DNA from: Verrucomicrobiota bacterium
GTDB taxonomy: Bacteria; Verrucomicrobiota; Verrucomicrobiia; Chthoniobacterales; UBA10450
Direction of reading: 5' to 3'
DNA: 64,000 bases
NCBI GenBank assembly: GCA_003218375.1
Contig: QHNH01000028.1
Span: forward strand, 62,001-126,000
A program made the translations under genes and the position numbers. Positions 10,265-51,090 of the stretch are shown here, piece by piece (the stretch's first letter is position 1; every line of letters begins with the position of its first letter). The notes under the pieces are model-generated. The model was not told the origin of the DNA and ran no database searches. It worked only from the letters and a program-made list of their open reading frames with translations.

Positions 10265-10280
10265 CGGAAGAAATAGGCGG

Positions 10281-10742
10281 ATGAATCTGGAAGCCAGGAA
10301 ACCATGAGGGTTAAAGAGAAACGTCAGAGGCGGGATCGGGGCGATACTCCCGCCCGACCCGCTTCACGACCAATCTGGTCGAGGCGAAATTGAGCAAGAG
10401 TGCATCATCAAGGCTCGAAGCTTTTAAATAGGAACGGACAATCGCAAAGTGAATCTTCTCCAGCTGAGAGATCGCTTTTAGCTCAAGGACAAGTTTTCCC
10501 TCGACCAGCAAATCGAGACGGTGTTCTCCAATGACATGCTCTCGATAAAAAATGGGCAGCAACTTCTGCCGCTCAAACAATATGCCGGAATGCGCGAGCT
10601 CAATTGCCAAAGCTTCTTCGTACATGCTCTCCAGAAATCCAGGTTCCAGCTCCTTGTGAACCCGGATCGCCGCCGCGATCACGCGCGCACTTAATTCATA
10701 GTTTCCCAATCCCATTCCTGGTTTCCTGGCTTCCAGATTCAT
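10281..10742. mobile_element. GxxExxY cassette bounded by perfect 24-bp inverted repeats
   Basis: The 24-nt sequence beginning ATGAATCTGGAAGCCAGG occurs at 10281-10304 on the plus strand and at 10719-10742 on the minus strand, an exact inverted pair. The ends are built from a CCAGGAA-like word, the same style as the other word-repeat arms in the window. The GxxExxY gene fills the space between them: its ATG is inside one repeat and its TAA lies 7 nt beyond the other. The unit sits between nuoF and nuoG in an otherwise compact operon. The inverted repeat and its position are seen directly; mobility is inferred. Confidence 0.8.
10311..10742 (-). CDS. GxxExxY family protein
   Basis: The 143-residue product has the family core ELEPGFLESMYEEALAIEL, with the GxxExxY signature at GFLESMY, followed by HRLDLLVEGKLVLELKA, which looks like a PD-(D/E)xK nuclease-type core (D and ExK). 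Function in the family is not established. ATG 10742 overlaps the nuoF TGA as TGATG and lies inside a 24-bp inverted repeat; an alternative ATG is at M10. It interrupts the nuo operon without breaking the neighbouring frames. The family is commonly scattered as single genes in environmental bacteria. Confidence 0.9.
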   Translation of the reverse strand: MNLEARKPGMGLGNYELSARVIAAAIRVHKELEPGFLESMYEEALAIELAHSGILFERQKLLPIFYREHVIGEHRLDLLVEGKLVLELKAISQLEKIHFAIVRSYLKASSLDDALLLNFASTRLVVKRVGREYRPDPASDVSL

Positions 10743-12727
10743 CAGATTCTTCCCGCTGCGCCTGCTTTTTCCCAGCCAGGGTCGCGTGGCAGGGATGTCT
10801 CGGTGATTGTTTGTTCGGTGATCAGTTCTTCTGGCGTGTATTCCGGCGGCATCGGCGGCGGGACTGGTTTCCGGGAGCGCGCCGTAAATTCATCGCGGAA
10901 TTTCTCGACGAAACTTTGGGTCGGCCAGGCGCAGGCTTCTCCGAAGGCGCAGATGGTCCGGCCGGCGATGTTATCGGCGACGTTCTTTAACGTGTCCGGA
11001 TCCTGGACTACGCCGCCGCCGAGCAGCATGCGGTCGGTGATTTTTTGCATCCAGAGTGAGCCTTCGCGGCAGGGCGTGCATTGGCCGCAACTCTCGTGCG
11101 CGTAAAATTCGTTGATGTTGTTCAGGGTCCAGACCATGTCGCGCGTTTCATCGAGGATGATGACGCCGCCCGAACCCGCCATCGATCCGGCGGCGGCGAG
11201 GGAATCGAAATCCATCGGGATTTCGTAAAGCGACACTTCCTGTTCGGCCATCGAGCCGTCCGGTTGTTTCAGTTTGAGTTTGAAACGCTCGTCGGCGCGC
11301 AGAACTTTCGCCGAACTTCCGCCGGGAATGACGGCCTTGATTTGCCGCCCGTAACGCGGGCCGCCCGCCATATCGTAAATGAGCTGACCCATCGTGACCG
11401 CGCCCACTTCGATCTCGAAATAACCGGGCCGCTGCACGTCGCCGCTCACACAAACGATCCGGGTGCCGGTGTTGTTAGGCCGGCCGAGGCTGGCGTAACT
11501 GCCGCCGCCCATTTCGATGATGTGCTTCACGTGGCAGAGGGTCTCGACGTTGTTCACGATTGTCGGGCACATGTAGAGGCCGAGCACCGCCGGGAAATAC
11601 GGCGGCTTGATTCGTGGATAAGCGCGCTTGCCTTCGAGCGATTCGATCAGCCCGGTTTCTTCGCCGCAGATGTAAGCGCCGGCGCCGCGATGAACGTAAA
11701 TCTCGACGTCGAACCCGGTGCCGAGCATGTTGCGCCCCACGAAATTTTTCTCGCGCGCTTCCTCGATCGCGCGCTCGAGGATCTTCGCGCCTTCCGGAAA
11801 CTCGCCGCGGATGTAGATGTAGGCCGTCTTCGCGCCGAGCGCGAAACAGGAGATCAGGATTCCCTCGATCAACTGGTGGGGATCCTCGTGAACAATGTAG
11901 CGGTCCTTGAATGTCCCCGGCTCCGATTCATCGGCGTTGCAGATCAGGTAGACCGGCTTTTTTTCGTCGGCCTTGATAAAGCTCCATTTCACGCCGCAGG
12001 GAAACCCGGCGCCGCCGCGGCCCCGCAGGCCAGAAGTCTTCACTTCGTTCACGATTTCCGTGCGCGACATCTTGATCGCCTTCTTCAACGGCTCGTAGCC
12101 GCCGTGGCGCAGGTAGCAATCGATGTCGGTGGTGTAATCAGAGCGGCCGATGTTTTTGAAAATGAGGCGGTGCTCGAGGGGGTGAGGGGAGGTTTGAGGT
12201 TTGATGTTTGACGTTTGATTTCGGAGCAACTCCGCGGCTGCGGCTGGTTGCACGTTCTCGATCAGTTCATCCTGGACCATGCAGACCGGGGCAGTCCCGC
12301 AACTGGCGAGGCACTCGACGAATTCGATGCTGTATTTGCCATTATTGCTCACCGAGATCGGATGGTGCATGCCATTATCGTCGCGATGGCGGACGATGCC
12401 GGCGGCGGCGGAGGCGTGCTCCATGACCCGGTAGCTGCCGGCCATGGCACAGCTCAGGGTGCGGCAAACCCGGATGTGCGTTTTGCCGGCGGGCGCCTGC
12501 CGAAACATCGGATAGAACGTGACCAGCTCGAGAATGTTAATCGGTTGCAGCTCGAGCTTCACGGCGATCCAGCGCACGCCTTCGTCACTGATGAAACCGA
12601 ATTCCTCCTGCCACAAATGGAGCAGCGGCATCGCGGCGCTGCGTTTCCGATCCGCCGGATAACGCCCGATCGCTTCATCCATTTTCCGAGTAAGCTCGGC
12701 GGAGATACGCTTGTTCGTCGGTTCCAC
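10742..12727 (-). CDS. nuoEF: NADH-quinone oxidoreductase NuoE-NuoF fusion
   Basis: NADH-oxidising module of complex I in one frame of about 661 residues. The NuoE part (first about 170 residues) has MPLLHLWQEEFG and [2Fe-2S] cysteines in CRTLSC and CLASCG. The NuoF part (about 185-661) has GRGGAGFPCGVKW (FMN/NADH glycine-rich), CNADESEPGTFKDR, CGEETGLIESLEG and the [4Fe-4S] ligands ESCGQCTPCREG with a later Cys in TICAFGEAC. The joining linker reads LLRNQTSNIKPQTSPHP and comes from a GTTTGA-word repeat arm (12192-12223). NuoF resumes at EHRLIFKNIG with no start codon of its own. The preferred start is GTG 12727, because the upstream frame to 13003 overlaps the BamE-like gene. The stop overlaps the GxxExxY ATG. 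Confidence 0.9.
   Translation of the reverse strand: MEPTNKRISAELTRKMDEAIGRYPADRKRSAAMPLLHLWQEEFGFISDEGVRWIAVKLELQPINILELVTFYPMFRQAPAGKTHIRVCRTLSCAMAGSYRVMEHASAAAGIVRHRDDNGMHHPISVSNNGKYSIEFVECLASCGTAPVCMVQDELIENVQPAAAAELLRNQTSNIKPQTSPHPLEHRLIFKNIGRSDYTTDIDCYLRHGGYEPLKKAIKMSRTEIVNEVKTSGLRGRGGAGFPCGVKWSFIKADEKKPVYLICNADESEPGTFKDRYIVHEDPHQLIEGILISCFALGAKTAYIYIRGEFPEGAKILERAIEEAREKNFVGRNMLGTGFDVEIYVHRGAGAYICGEETGLIESLEGKRAYPRIKPPYFPAVLGLYMCPTIVNNVETLCHVKHIIEMGGGSYASLGRPNNTGTRIVCVSGDVQRPGYFEIEVGAVTMGQLIYDMAGGPRYGRQIKAVIPGGSSAKVLRADERFKLKLKQPDGSMAEQEVSLYEIPMDFDSLAAAGSMAGSGGVIILDETRDMVWTLNNINEFYAHESCGQCTPCREGSLWMQKITDRMLLGGGVVQDPDTLKNVADNIAGRTICAFGEACAWPTQSFVEKFRDEFTARSRKPVPPPMPPEYTPEELITEQTITETSLPRDPGWEKAGAAGRI
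12192..12223. repeat. Single word-repeat arm F5 (GTTTGA) inside the nuoE-nuoF junction
   Basis: Four units of GTTTGA separated by 1-2 nt (GAGGTTTGATGTTTGACG pattern) lie inside the fused nuoEF frame, where they encode NQTSNIKPQTS. No complementary arm is visible nearby. It is therefore either a half element or the remains of one. It falls exactly at the expected nuoE/nuoF boundary. Confidence 0.75.
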
Positions 12728-16243: not shown

Positions 16244-16693
16244 ATGACTTTACCAGAGCGAATCGATGCCGATCTGAAAGATGCGATGCGCGCGAAGGAC
16301 GCCGGCCGGCTCAATGTTTTGCGCATGTTGAAGTCGGCGCTGAAGTACGCGGCGATCGAGAAATCGGATCCGGGGCTGGACGACGCGGCGGCCTCGCAAG
16401 TAATTCGCAAACAGGTCAAGCAGCGGCAGGATTCGATCGAGCAATTCGAAAAGGGCGGAAGGCTTGAGCTGGCCGCGAAGGAAAAGGAAGAGCTGGAAAT
16501 GCTCAACGCTTACCTGCCGAAGGGAATGAACGCGGACGAACTCGCGGCGATGGTGCGCGAAACAATCGCCGAAGTTGGAGCGACCTCGAAGGCGCATATG
16601 GGAGCGGTAATGAAAGCGCTCCAGACAAAAGTCGCCGGGCGCGCGGATGGGAAAACGCTGAGCGGGGAGGTGTCAAAACAGTTGAGTGGTTGA
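16244..16693 (+). CDS. GatB/YqeY domain-containing protein
   Basis: YqeY-type protein, 149 residues, standard length. It resembles the C-terminal tRNA-binding domain of the GatB amidotransferase subunit, but stand-alone members have no firm function. Visible marks are DADLKDAMRAKDAGRLNVLRML, the charged helix KEKEELEMLNAYLPK, and MGAVMKALQTKVAGRADGKTLS near the end. The final residues LSG and TGA fall in an F4 repeat arm, so the repeat supplies the stop codon. Confidence 0.9.
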   Translation: MTLPERIDADLKDAMRAKDAGRLNVLRMLKSALKYAAIEKSDPGLDDAAASQVIRKQVKQRQDSIEQFEKGGRLELAAKEKEELEMLNAYLPKGMNADELAAMVRETIAEVGATSKAHMGAVMKALQTKVAGRADGKTLSGEVSKQLSG

Positions 16694-16770
16694 GGAGTTG
16701 AGAGGTTGAGTGGACGAAGAAGTCCGCGCTCACCGACCTCTCAACCTCTCAACCTCTCAACCTCTCAACC
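16681..16770. repeat. Inverted word-repeat hairpin, word F4 (GTTGAGNN), yqeY-ispD spacer
   Basis: The left arm 16681-16710 consists of octamers GTTGAGNN. The right arm 16736-16770 is four exact CCTCTCAA units. Spacer about 25 nt. The left arm provides the yqeY stop; the right arm ends 1 nt before the ispD ATG. A left arm of the same word recurs at 49164-49202. Confidence 0.9.
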
Positions 16771-47629: not shown

Positions 47630-47765
47630 GAAGCTCCAAATTCCAAGCTCCAAGCACCAGAGAAGCTCCAATAACCAAGCACCAAGCAATGTGCGGGCGC
47701 GCCATTTGAATCTTGGAGCTTGATGTTTCTCTGGAGCTTGGAGCTTGGAGCTTGGAGCTTTGCCG
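47630..47765. repeat. Inverted word-repeat hairpin, word F3 (AGCTCCA), before hpnH
   Basis: The left arm 47630-47692 repeats AGCTCCAA/AAGCACCA. The right arm 47710-47765 repeats TTGGAGCTTGG units. The same word as 14466-14605. It occupies most of the 47554-47859 gap. The remainder (47766-47859) should hold the hpnH promoter, with no clear boxes seen. Confidence 0.88.
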
Positions 47766-47859: not shown

Positions 47860-49161
47860 ATGAGATTCCCGCTGGCGCTCACTACCAAGATCGCCGCTTA
47901 TATTATCACCCAGAAGCTGCGTCGGACCGAGAAGTTCGCGACCGTCCTCCAGCTCGAGCCGTTGCATACGTGCAACTTGACCTGCACGGGCTGTGGCCGG
48001 ATCCGCGAGTATTCGACCTCGCTCAAGGACATCATGCCGCTGGAGGATTGCCTGAGCGCCGCCCAGGAATGTAACGCGCCCATGATTTCCATCTGCGGTG
48101 GCGAGCCCCTGATTTACCCGCAGATCGAAGCGCTCGTGAAAGGTCTCCTCAACCAGAAGCGGATCGTTTACGTCTGCACCAACGCGATGTTCATGCGCAA
48201 GAAAATGCGCGAATGGCTCTCTTCAGAATTTGCCTCAGCGAAAAATGGCAGCCGAAAAGGGCTCGAAGCGAAACTGACGCAGCTGGTCGCGAAAGGATTG
48301 GTTTCCGAGAAAGACGCGGAAGTCGTCCGGCAAGGTCCGAAGGATCCCGCCAAGCCCACCATCGGGCCGTCACGCTGGATGTATTGGAACGTCCACCTCG
48401 ATGGGCTCGAGCGGACGCATGACCTGATCGTCGAGCGCGAAGGCGTTTTCAAGGAATGCATCCTCGCGATCAAGATGGCGAAGCTGCTCGGTTACCAGGT
48501 CGCGACGAACACCACCATCTACAAGGAAACCGACATGGGCGAAGTCGAGCAGATGTTCGATTTCCTGTCCGATCTCGGCGTCGATGGCCACACGATCTCG
48601 CCCGGTTACGAGTACGACGCGGCCAAGAAGGACATGATCAAGCGGTTAAACCTCCAGCCGGAAAATTTCTTTCTCACTCGCAAGATGACGATCGAGAAGT
48701 TTAAGAAGATCGAGGAGTGGATGGGCAAATACACGCTCTTCGGAACCCCGATTTATTTCGAGTTTCTCGCCGGTAAACGCGACCTGACCTGTTCCGCCTG
48801 GGCAATCCCGACGCGCAATATCCGCGGCTGGAAAGGCCCATGCTATTTAATGACGGACGCCCATTATTCGAGCTACGCCGAGCTGCTCGAGAAAGTGGAA
48901 TGGGAAAAATACGGCGTGGAAAAGGGCGTGGTGAAAGACAGCCGCTGCGAGAACTGCATGGTGCATTGCGGCTATGAGCCAACCGCGAGTTTAGGCCTCA
49001 ATGCGCAACGCGGCGACACCTGGAAAAATCTCCGGTTCAATTTTGGCTCGAAGCCGAAACCGACTGGTCTTGGCAACGAGATCACGGCGTATAACGGCGT
49101 CACTTCCGGCAACGGGCATTTGACGGGTCGCAAGGCGGGAACAGAATCGGTCGCGTGTTGA
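47860..49161 (+). CDS. hpnH: Adenosyl-hopene transferase HpnH (radical SAM), with an insertion
   Basis: Radical SAM enzyme that adds adenosyl to hopene, the first committed step to C35 hopanoids. 433 residues. CX3CX2C cluster site in LHTCNLTCTGCGR, followed by SICGGEPLIYPQI and YVCTNAMFM. The usual VHLDGLE segment is preceded by about 50 extra residues (SSEFASAKNGSRKGLEAKL...GPSRWMY). Later YEFLAGKRDLTCSAW and CENCMVHCGYE, with two more cysteine clusters. The family is usually about 330-390 residues. Its stop TGA lies in an F4 repeat word. Next to shc, as expected for hopanoid genes. Confidence 0.92.
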   Translation: MRFPLALTTKIAAYIITQKLRRTEKFATVLQLEPLHTCNLTCTGCGRIREYSTSLKDIMPLEDCLSAAQECNAPMISICGGEPLIYPQIEALVKGLLNQKRIVYVCTNAMFMRKKMREWLSSEFASAKNGSRKGLEAKLTQLVAKGLVSEKDAEVVRQGPKDPAKPTIGPSRWMYWNVHLDGLERTHDLIVEREGVFKECILAIKMAKLLGYQVATNTTIYKETDMGEVEQMFDFLSDLGVDGHTISPGYEYDAAKKDMIKRLNLQPENFFLTRKMTIEKFKKIEEWMGKYTLFGTPIYFEFLAGKRDLTCSAWAIPTRNIRGWKGPCYLMTDAHYSSYAELLEKVEWEKYGVEKGVVKDSRCENCMVHCGYEPTASLGLNAQRGDTWKNLRFNFGSKPKPTGLGNEITAYNGVTSGNGHLTGRKAGTESVAC

Positions 49162-49163
49162 GA

Positions 49164-49202
49164 AGCGGGTGGTTGAGAGGTTGAGGAGTTGAGAGGTTGA
49201 GA
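49164..49202. repeat. Left arm of F4 word repeat (GTTGAGNN) beside four-helix-bundle remnant
   Basis: GGTTGAGAGGTTGAGGAG and following octamers match the left arm at 16681-16710. No right arm is found downstream, where shc coding sequence resumes. The hpnH stop overlaps the first word unit. Confidence 0.85.
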
Positions 49203-49214
49203 GGAGGAACGGCG

Positions 49215-49275
49215 ATGCCCACCAGACATGTTTATCCGTTTGAAAAGCTGAGAGTTTGGCAGAGCGCCCGTAGCC
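49215..49275 (+). pseudogene. Four-helix-bundle (23S rRNA IVP-like) gene remnant
   Basis: Starts at ATG 49215 with GAGGAGG 7-8 nt upstream, a strong ribosome binding site, and reads MPTRHVYPFEKLRVWQSAR before the sequence turns into shc in another frame. The string (F)EKLRVWQSARSLV is the usual start of the four-helix-bundle family (full length about 115-130 residues). Only about 20 codons remain. The join to shc lies near 49265-49275. The family's founding members are encoded in intervening sequences of 23S rRNA. Here it follows an F4 repeat arm. Confidence 0.75.
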
Positions 49276-49278
49276 TCG

Positions 49279-51090
49279 TTCGATTACGTGCTGTTCATGC
49301 ATTGGCTGGGAGAAGTGGACGACGCATTGCAGCAGCGATGCGTGCGCCACATTCTCAAGCGCCAGCTTCCGGATGGCGGTTGGAACATTTATTACGGCGG
49401 GCCGAGCGAAGTAAACGCGTCGGTCAAAGCTTACTTCGCGCTCAAGCTGGCGGGGCACTCCGCCGATCTGCCGTTCATGCAGGAAGCGCGCGCGAACATT
49501 CTTCGGCTCGGCGGCATCCCGAAGATGAATACCTTCAGCAAACTTTACCTCGCGCTGCTCGGGCAATTTCCCTGGCACTACCTGCCCTCGATCCCGGTCG
49601 AGATGATCCTGTTTCCGAACTGGGCCTTCTTTAATATTTACAAAATGTCGTCCTGGAGCCGGGCGATGCTGATCCCGCTAGCGATCATCAATCACTTCAA
49701 GCCGACGCGGGAATTGCCCGGGATGAAACAGCTTCACGAGCTTTATCCGCTCGGCACCGAGCACAAGGATTTCACGCTCCCGCGCGACCCGCGGTTCTTC
49801 GCCTGGCGGAATTTTTTCCTGCGCGCGGACCACGGGCTCAAAATCGTTTCGAAATTCGGCTGGCGCCCGATGCGGAAACGCGCGCTCGAAGAAGCGGAGC
49901 GCTGGATGCTGGAGCGGATCGGCGAGGGGAGTGACGGGCTCGCGGCCGTCTTCCCGGCGATGTTAAATGCGCTGATCGCTTTGCGCGCGCTCGGTTATTC
50001 GACAAGCCATCCGGTCTACGCAAAAGCCGCCCGGGATTTCTCCGGCCTCTTCGTCGACGACCTGGAAGATTTTCGGATTCAACCCTGTCTCTCCCCGGTG
50101 TGGGACACGGCGATCAATATCATCGCGCTCGCTGAATCCGGTTTGCCGGCCGAGCATCCCGCGCTCAGAAAAGCCGCGAGCTGGCTGGTCGAGAAAGAGG
50201 TAAGGGTGCGCGGCGATTGGACGATTAACAATCCGCATACCGAAGCGAGCGGCTGGGCGTTCGAATACAACAACGTTTATTATCCAGATACCGACGACAC
50301 CGGGATGGTGCTGATGGCGTTGCGGCTGGCGAAGCCGGATGATCCGCAGGCGCTCGACGCGTTGTTCCGGCGCGCGATCGCGTGGCAATTGAGTTTCCAA
50401 TGTCGCGATGGCGGCTGGGCCGCGTTCGACAAGGAAGTCACCAAGCACTGGCTGGAAGACATGCCGTTCGCCGATCACAACGCCATCCTTGATCCGACCT
50501 GCAGTGATCTCACCGCGCGCACTCTCGAGCTTTTCGGTTACATTAACTTCGACGCGAAACAGCGTTCGGTCCGCGACGCGATCCGCTACCTGATCGATAC
50601 CCAGGATGACGACGGCTCGTGGTACGGGCGCTGGGGCGTGAATTACATTTACGGTACCTGGCAGGTGCTGCGCGGTCTGCGCGCCATCGGCGAAAACATG
50701 ACCCAGGATTGGATCCTGCGCGGGCGCGATTGGCTGGAGAGCTGCCAAAACGATAACGGCGGTTGGGGCGAGACCTGCGTTTCGTACGAAAACCCGGCAC
50801 TGAAAGGCAAAGGCGAAAGCACGGCGTCGCAAACGGCATGGGCCATCATGGGCATTTGTGCGTGCGGCGATCTCGATCGGTCGAGTGTGCAACGCGGCCT
50901 GCGTTATCTGTTGAGCACGCAGCGGCCCGATGGCGCCTGGGACGAACCGCACATCACCGGCACCGGTTTTCCGGGTGTCTTTTATCTGAAGTACGACATG
51001 TACCGGCAGAATTTCCCGCTCCTCGCCCTGGCTACCTACGTGAATTACCGGACCGGCCTCGGACATTATCCGAGTTTCTATCGCTTGTAG
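49279..51090 (+). CDS. shc: Squalene-hopene cyclase, 5'-truncated
   Basis: Cyclises squalene to hopene at the membrane. The frame opens at a TGA (49249) and the only starts are GTG 49279 (VLFMHWLGEVDD) or ATG 49288, giving about 600 residues. The family is about 630-680, so roughly 45-60 N-terminal residues, with the first QW region, are lost. The remainder is complete: QW-type repeats (RQLPDGGWNIYYGGPSE, CRDGGWAAFDKE, NDNGGWGE, RPDGAWDEP), DTDDTGMVL (catalytic DxDD with Gly in place of the usual Ala) and SPVWDT. A four-helix-bundle remnant is fused just upstream. The encoded enzyme may be inactive, or the junction an assembly error. Confidence 0.88.
   Translation, partial: FDYVLFMHWLGEVDDALQQRCVRHILKRQLPDGGWNIYYGGPSEVNASVKAYFALKLAGHSADLPFMQEARANILRLGGIPKMNTFSKLYLALLGQFPWHYLPSIPVEMILFPNWAFFNIYKMSSWSRAMLIPLAIINHFKPTRELPGMKQLHELYPLGTEHKDFTLPRDPRFFAWRNFFLRADHGLKIVSKFGWRPMRKRALEEAERWMLERIGEGSDGLAAVFPAMLNALIALRALGYSTSHPVYAKAARDFSGLFVDDLEDFRIQPCLSPVWDTAINIIALAESGLPAEHPALRKAASWLVEKEVRVRGDWTINNPHTEASGWAFEYNNVYYPDTDDTGMVLMALRLAKPDDPQALDALFRRAIAWQLSFQCRDGGWAAFDKEVTKHWLEDMPFADHNAILDPTCSDLTARTLELFGYINFDAKQRSVRDAIRYLIDTQDDDGSWYGRWGVNYIYGTWQVLRGLRAIGENMTQDWILRGRDWLESCQNDNGGWGETCVSYENPALKGKGESTASQTAWAIMGICACGDLDRSSVQRGLRYLLSTQRPDGAWDEPHITGTGFPGVFYLKYDMYRQNFPLLALATYVNYRTGLGHYPSFYRL

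Follow-up and report, generated by a model that had tools for sequence, protein, structure and literature searches.

Layout of the hpnH-shc locus and its junction in relatives

The stretch of DNA analysed here (the window) comprises 64,000 nt of contig QHNH01000028.1 from assembly GCA_003218375.1, a genome of 3.96 Mb from Verrucomicrobiota (UBA10450). Around the junction between hpnH and shc, the following features were observed:

47860-49161, plus strand: hpnH (adenosyl-hopene transferase), intact, the upstream neighbour of the remnant (TIGR03470, E = 7.6e-113)
49171-49205, plus strand: 5' word arm of 35 nt with four period-8 GTTGAG words, sequence GGTTGAGAGGTTGAGGAGTTGAGAGGTTGAGAGGA, identified by its exact position, its genome-wide matches and the counts of period-8 arrays
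49202-49210, plus strand: Shine-Dalgarno-like sequence AGGAGGAAC, overlapping the end of the arm
49215-49277, plus strand: remnant of a four-helix-bundle (4HB; PF05635/S23-type) gene, 21 codons, FEKLRVWQSAR subtype, identified by a 22-aa match to the intact gene of genome G022
49277-49278: probable deletion junction, at which the rest of the 4HB gene, a 3' arm and the first ~62 codons of shc are missing by comparison with G022 and G005
49279-51090, plus strand: shc (squalene-hopene cyclase) without its N terminus (TIGR01507, E = 1.6e-198, from profile position 51)

The remnant begins with an ATG at 49215 behind a strong ribosome binding site, and its 21 to 25 codons read MPTRHVYPFEKLRVWQSARSLVRL (MPTRHVYPFEKLRVWQSARSLV in the 21-codon form). 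A search of the whole genome of the window with the intact 4HB protein of G022 recovered the remnant at 77% identity over 22 aa (E = 1.2e-5), and G022 also gives the best match within the remnant's own subtype (81% across the 16-aa core). Pfam and NCBIfam profiles returned 0 families for the 25-aa remnant, a piece too short to score. About 30 further sites in the genome match the arm at 49171-49205 with 86-97% identity, most of them forming inverted pairs with a spacing of 50-75 bp. An abrupt switch to shc follows at about 49277/49278, at a point equivalent to approximately codon 63 of the shc of G005, the closest congener, whose shc is 94% identical. From there the shc frame is open from 49279 to 51090, and PF13249 is matched from profile position 31. 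The first start codons remaining in this frame are a GTG at 49288 and an ATG at 49300, for neither of which a ribosome binding site is evident in the sequence. A fusion protein of 4HB and shc was rejected, since the two frames are out of register. The assembly of this genome yielded no second copy of shc. The arm, the ribosome binding site and the approximately 20 4HB codons followed by a headless shc, as described in the first-pass annotation, were confirmed from sequence and profile matches; the loss from shc that it had put at 45 to 60 codons also stood, at the slightly larger size of 62 codons measured against G005.

Presence of an insert at the same junction in relatives is patchy. In all seven congeners, including G005, hpnH and shc lie a few bases apart and shc has a normal start. 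In other genera, the junction is filled by arm-4HB-arm elements in G022, G032 and G020, and by an internally shortened one in G027. The intact element of G022 consists of GGTTGAGAGGTTGAGAAGTTGAGA, an ATG and a 122-aa 4HB protein (MARHAYPFEKLRVWQSARELVQ at its start), followed by TCTCAACCTCTCAACCTCTAAACC leading into shc, and its RNA folds into a strong stem closed by the arms (z = -4.8). The elements of G032 and G020 belong to another 4HB clade (VWNDAR) and have GTTGAA words, and G027 has a shortened gene of this clade, so that the residents of this junction belong to two 4HB clades, VWNDAR and VWQSAR. Since these two clades occur there and presence alternates with absence within genera, the junction was filled at least twice. 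Neither a target-site duplication nor an excision product was seen at the junctions compared. Both empty sites and intact arm-paired elements were therefore found among relatives, which supports the earlier claim that an arm-bounded 4HB element was inserted between hpnH and shc. Besides its copy at this junction, G020 carries two 4HB elements of one subtype with different GTTGAG arms approximately 1.5 kb apart (L098, contig G020:C53).

We consider it likely that an inserted element (arm, ribosome binding site, 4HB gene and inverted arm) has left its 5' portion here, the element having been placed between the hpnH stop and the shc start and later cut by a deletion of ~0.5 kb. The element would first have landed between the stop codon of hpnH and the start codon of shc in this lineage, and the deletion would then have left little of the 4HB gene and nothing of the 3' arm or the beginning of shc.

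What remains of shc evolves under ordinary constraint and shows no decay: dN/dS against G005 is 0.043, and codon changes unique to each branch amount to 11 nonsynonymous and 25 synonymous here compared to 11 and 35 in G005. A real deletion must therefore be recent. This leaves three options: a recent deletion, an error of assembly, or a truncated protein that is still functional. The deletion is read from one assembly, and this absence of relaxed selection would also fit a fault in which a complete arm-bounded 4HB element and an undamaged shc, both present on the real chromosome, were collapsed in a metagenome-type assembly. Word arms and hairpins are difficult to assemble, and the absence of another shc in the genome points the same way. 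However, with G022 and G005 standing in for the lost pieces, no shared sequence beyond a few bases was apparent at the junction, and a false k-mer join is not expected without homology of k-mer length; moreover, the contig extends over 133 kb and the assembly is 97.8% complete. We regard a fault of this kind as somewhat unlikely, and if it were true only the deletion would fall, leaving the reading as an inserted element unaffected.

Inverted word arms at 4HB and GxxExxY loci

Arms and gene form a unit at most 4HB loci. Matching inverted word arms (score of at least 14) were present at 85% of 164 chromosomal 4HB loci of Verrucomicrobiota and Planctomycetota, a raw count that includes many loci from metagenome assemblies and is inflated by orthologous sites, whereas 0.4% of 229 control pseudo-genes set inside neighbouring host genes reached this score. 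The pairing scores are local alignments of flanks taken in fixed windows of ~260 nt. Own-flank pairing reached a median of 18.5 compared to 9.0 for mismatched flanks in 85 4HB loci from this genome and its relatives, and 20.0 compared to 11.5 in 80 named loci, which come from Verrucomicrobiota (Chthoniobacter flavus among them) and Planctomycetota. The collection scan for these named loci used a narrow 4HB alignment, the six-sequence alignment having no sufficiently conserved stretch. In finished plasmids the values were 24 and 9, with arms at 12 of 12 4HB genes (11 cyanobacterial, the other from Azospirillum). The elements sit tightly between stop and start codons: the median distance is 0 nt from the upstream stop to the 5' arm and 6 nt from the 3' arm to the downstream start, for a median element length of 459 nt. 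The flanks that we looked at in relatives are protein genes and not rRNA; except for hpnH, shc and the annotations of plasmid records, we take the names of flanking genes from their translated sequence.

Each arm is built from repeated words of ~7-9 nt, and which word is used depends on the 4HB subtype, for example:

FEKLRVW(Q/N)xAR: period-8 GTTGAG words
FNFEKLDVW: period-7 AGTTGAG/T words
YKDLVVWQKG: GTGACGA words
FDHEKLDVY: CTCNTG words
SFEELEVWQRAC subtype: TTCAG words

We restricted the comparison of words and subtypes to unrelated sites, because orthologous sites would inflate the counts. Between such sites, arm similarity followed 4HB identity with r = 0.656, compared to a permutation maximum of 0.184. 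A single junction can illustrate the match: between sdhA and sdhB, some genomes have the FNFEKLDVW subtype with GTTGAG words and others TFEDLEVYQ with GTTGAAG or GAATCG words. A crude scan for GTTGAG words around the 13 4HB genes of this genome found no arms, a misleading result, since other subtypes have other words.

A second type of cargo is present in the window:

10280-10743, minus strand: GxxExxY (PF13366) cassette, arms and gene, apparently between two nuo-type genes; its inverted arms (10280-10303 and 10720-10743) match perfectly over 24 nt

The GxxExxY genes of this genome carry perfect or near-perfect inverted arms and are presumably located at a gyrB-gyrA junction and at a junction of two nuo-type genes, neighbours which we recognised from the translation and not by profile search. 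In relatives, 26 of the 30 GxxExxY loci tested (87%) had matching inverted word arms, compared to 6% of mismatched pairs. The first-pass annotation had placed the 4HB element and the GxxExxY cassette in one element class; this holds for the architecture, and not in the sense of one sequence family, as the words differ by cargo and subfamily.

Word arrays, cargo-free hairpins and possible mobility

Apart from the arm of the remnant, word arrays are dispersed through the genome, which has 30 period-8 GTTGA arrays, mostly as inverted pairs; many are hairpins without cargo, and several lie at gene junctions. One of these hairpins lies in the window:

16679-16770: cargo-free hairpin of period-8 GTTGAG words directly before an ispD-like gene, absent at the same junction in G001, G004 and G006

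This is the one clean empty site among the three hairpin sites checked in congeners; the other two hold different word tracts. Upstream of hpnH (47631-47761) lies another cargo-free hairpin, made of AAGCTCC words. The same words also flank an intact 4HB-like gene elsewhere in the genome (L020, HPFDLEERTALF subtype), which may make this another case of an element with stranded hairpins.

The arrays co-occur with the matching subtype. Six genomes have the FEKLRVW subtype, this one as the remnant, and their numbers of period-8 arrays are 0, 4, 8, 20, 30 and 37, compared to nearly always 0-2 in the other thirty genomes of the family. With host kinship ignored, this enrichment has p = 3.6e-4, or 1.4e-3 leaving out this genome, and at the same genome level period-8 arrays were not associated with the FNFEKLDVW subtype (p = 0.47). 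Period-7 arrays were enriched with FNFEKLDVW (p = 0.002, 13 of 13 genomes, host kinship again ignored), and this genome has neither period-7 arrays nor that subtype. The pattern is blurred by the weak enrichment that period-7 arrays show in genomes with FEKLRVW (p = 0.02, likewise ignoring kinship) and by G008, in which 16 period-8 arrays occur with another subtype; G027 is a further exception, having the FEKLRVW subtype and no array. The hairpins of this genome appear to derive from an element of which the remnant is the sole local gene copy. The only matching 4HB protein gene would then be dead and its hairpins stranded.

Mobility of the element is what we infer from presence and absence across genomes. 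Most probably, the 4HB protein would be the element's own factor and would recognise the arms made of its cognate words when these are folded, be it in DNA or in RNA, and it might help to copy or insert the arms; cargo-free hairpins would then be non-autonomous derivatives moved in trans. RNase III may cut the stem in the transcript, by analogy with the intervening sequences (IVSs) of 23S rRNA, so that the host operon would tolerate the insert. We know of no nuclease, transposase or ligase activity in the 4HB family.

Word tracts also differ between species at the same place. Several intergenic junctions (L225-L231 and L241-L244) carry differing tracts in congeners (GGAGTGGTGGAG, GGGTTCAGGGTTC and ACAGGATT hairpins), as if replaced in place. 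Words can turn over in place, and it is conceivable that nothing here is mobile: the word hairpins would be RNA features of the host, serving processing or attenuation, with words rewritten in place by slippage or conversion, and the 4HB genes would have fallen into their loops. The differing words at homologous junctions of congeners would fit such rewriting, as would the match between the two arms of one element while words at the same site differ between species; heptamer classes have also been repeatedly replaced in the P6b stem of Nostoc (PMC4476775). Yet capture in a loop would not explain why, at unrelated sites and in two phyla, the words go with the 4HB subtype, and close congeners have clean hpnH/shc junctions without a word tract. 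We hold this explanation to be unlikely.

A conventional miniature element, in which a 4HB gene became enclosed by ends that an unrelated transposase encoded elsewhere can move, is in our judgement quite improbable. The inverted ends, short length and non-autonomous hairpins do resemble a MITE, but the ends differ wholly between subtypes and track the 4HB sequence, which makes one shared transposase unlikely, and no target-site duplication was seen.

Our tentative proposal, which we would not yet call probable, is that these are small mobile or selfish elements of at least three phyla, in which a 4HB or GxxExxY protein recognises its own word arms, inserts at stop/start junctions and moves hairpins in trans. 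If true, this would account for the orphan S23/IVP family as well as for the heptamer arrays of cyanobacteria and others. To our knowledge, the S23/IVP family is widespread without a known function, and decades of work describing heptamer repeats have not supplied an origin for them. Subtype-specific words across phyla and sites tie the two together and make the function of both directly testable. They also allow a simple account of the 4HB genes inside cas, sdh, liv, gap-pgk and hopanoid operons.

Comparison with known systems

The 4HB protein of G022 matches the solved structure of Xcc0516 (2GSC) with E = 1.7e-25, its only solved relative by sequence. Xcc0516 comes from Xanthomonas. In the mechanism that we find most likely, the element would be an equivalent of the 23S rRNA IVS that resides in protein operons. 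The IVS of Coxiella has 428 nt, encodes an S23 protein and has complementary ends that form a 28-bp stem cut by RNase III (PMC4990558). Shared with the IVSs of Coxiella and Leptospira are the 4HB protein family, to which the remnant is linked through its intact G022 relative, a similar size, a patchy distribution and complementary ends forming a stem; such ends surround the open reading frame in relatives, and in the window the 5' arm alone survives. In contrast to an IVS, the remnant lies between hpnH and shc and not inside a 23S or 16S rRNA gene. The elements described here occur at stop/start junctions of protein operons, have 7-9 nt words matching the 4HB subtype and are accompanied by dispersed cargo-free hairpins.

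REPINs are dispersed palindromic doublets that form hairpins and are thought to be moved in trans by RAYTs (PMC3116915). Similarly, the gene of the present elements lies next to cognate palindromic repeats, and inverted doublets are scattered through the genome that carries it. The present gene, however, is of 4HB type and not a Y1 HUH transposase, the repeats are arrays of short words, both arms closely bound the gene, and many gene copies per genome are possible. As for insertion sequences, inverted ends were found in relatives, but the element contains no transposase and no duplication was seen.

Heptamer arrays of cyanobacteria (STRR) and of Xanthomonas share the period-7 degenerate words, the intergenic position and the frequent inverted pairs; in Xanthomonas campestris, GGGAATC heptamers form 70 inverted pairs (PMC4692102). 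The published descriptions that we found draw no link to a 4HB gene, whereas such arrays bound all 12 plasmid 4HB genes here. The P6b stem of the Nostoc tRNA-Leu intron consists of one of two heptamer classes, class II being NNTGAGT (PMC4476775). It thus has a complementary stem of heptamer words, with class II resembling the GTTGAG words, but it lies inside a group I intron and no 4HB gene is described there.

In the literature covered, which was incomplete, we found no description of 4HB elements at operon junctions, and an element class at such junctions in at least three bacterial phyla is apparently undescribed. A 4HB gene (23S_rRNA_IVP) between cmr3 and cmr2, or near cas4/cas6, was read as CRISPR linked (PMC3936711). 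On cyanobacterial plasmids, we observed 4HB genes between cas6 and cas4 or between cas10 and cmr3 with inverted heptamer arms (L255, L259 and L262). The place of 4HB genes in cas operons may thus reflect insertion at an operon junction and not a CRISPR function.
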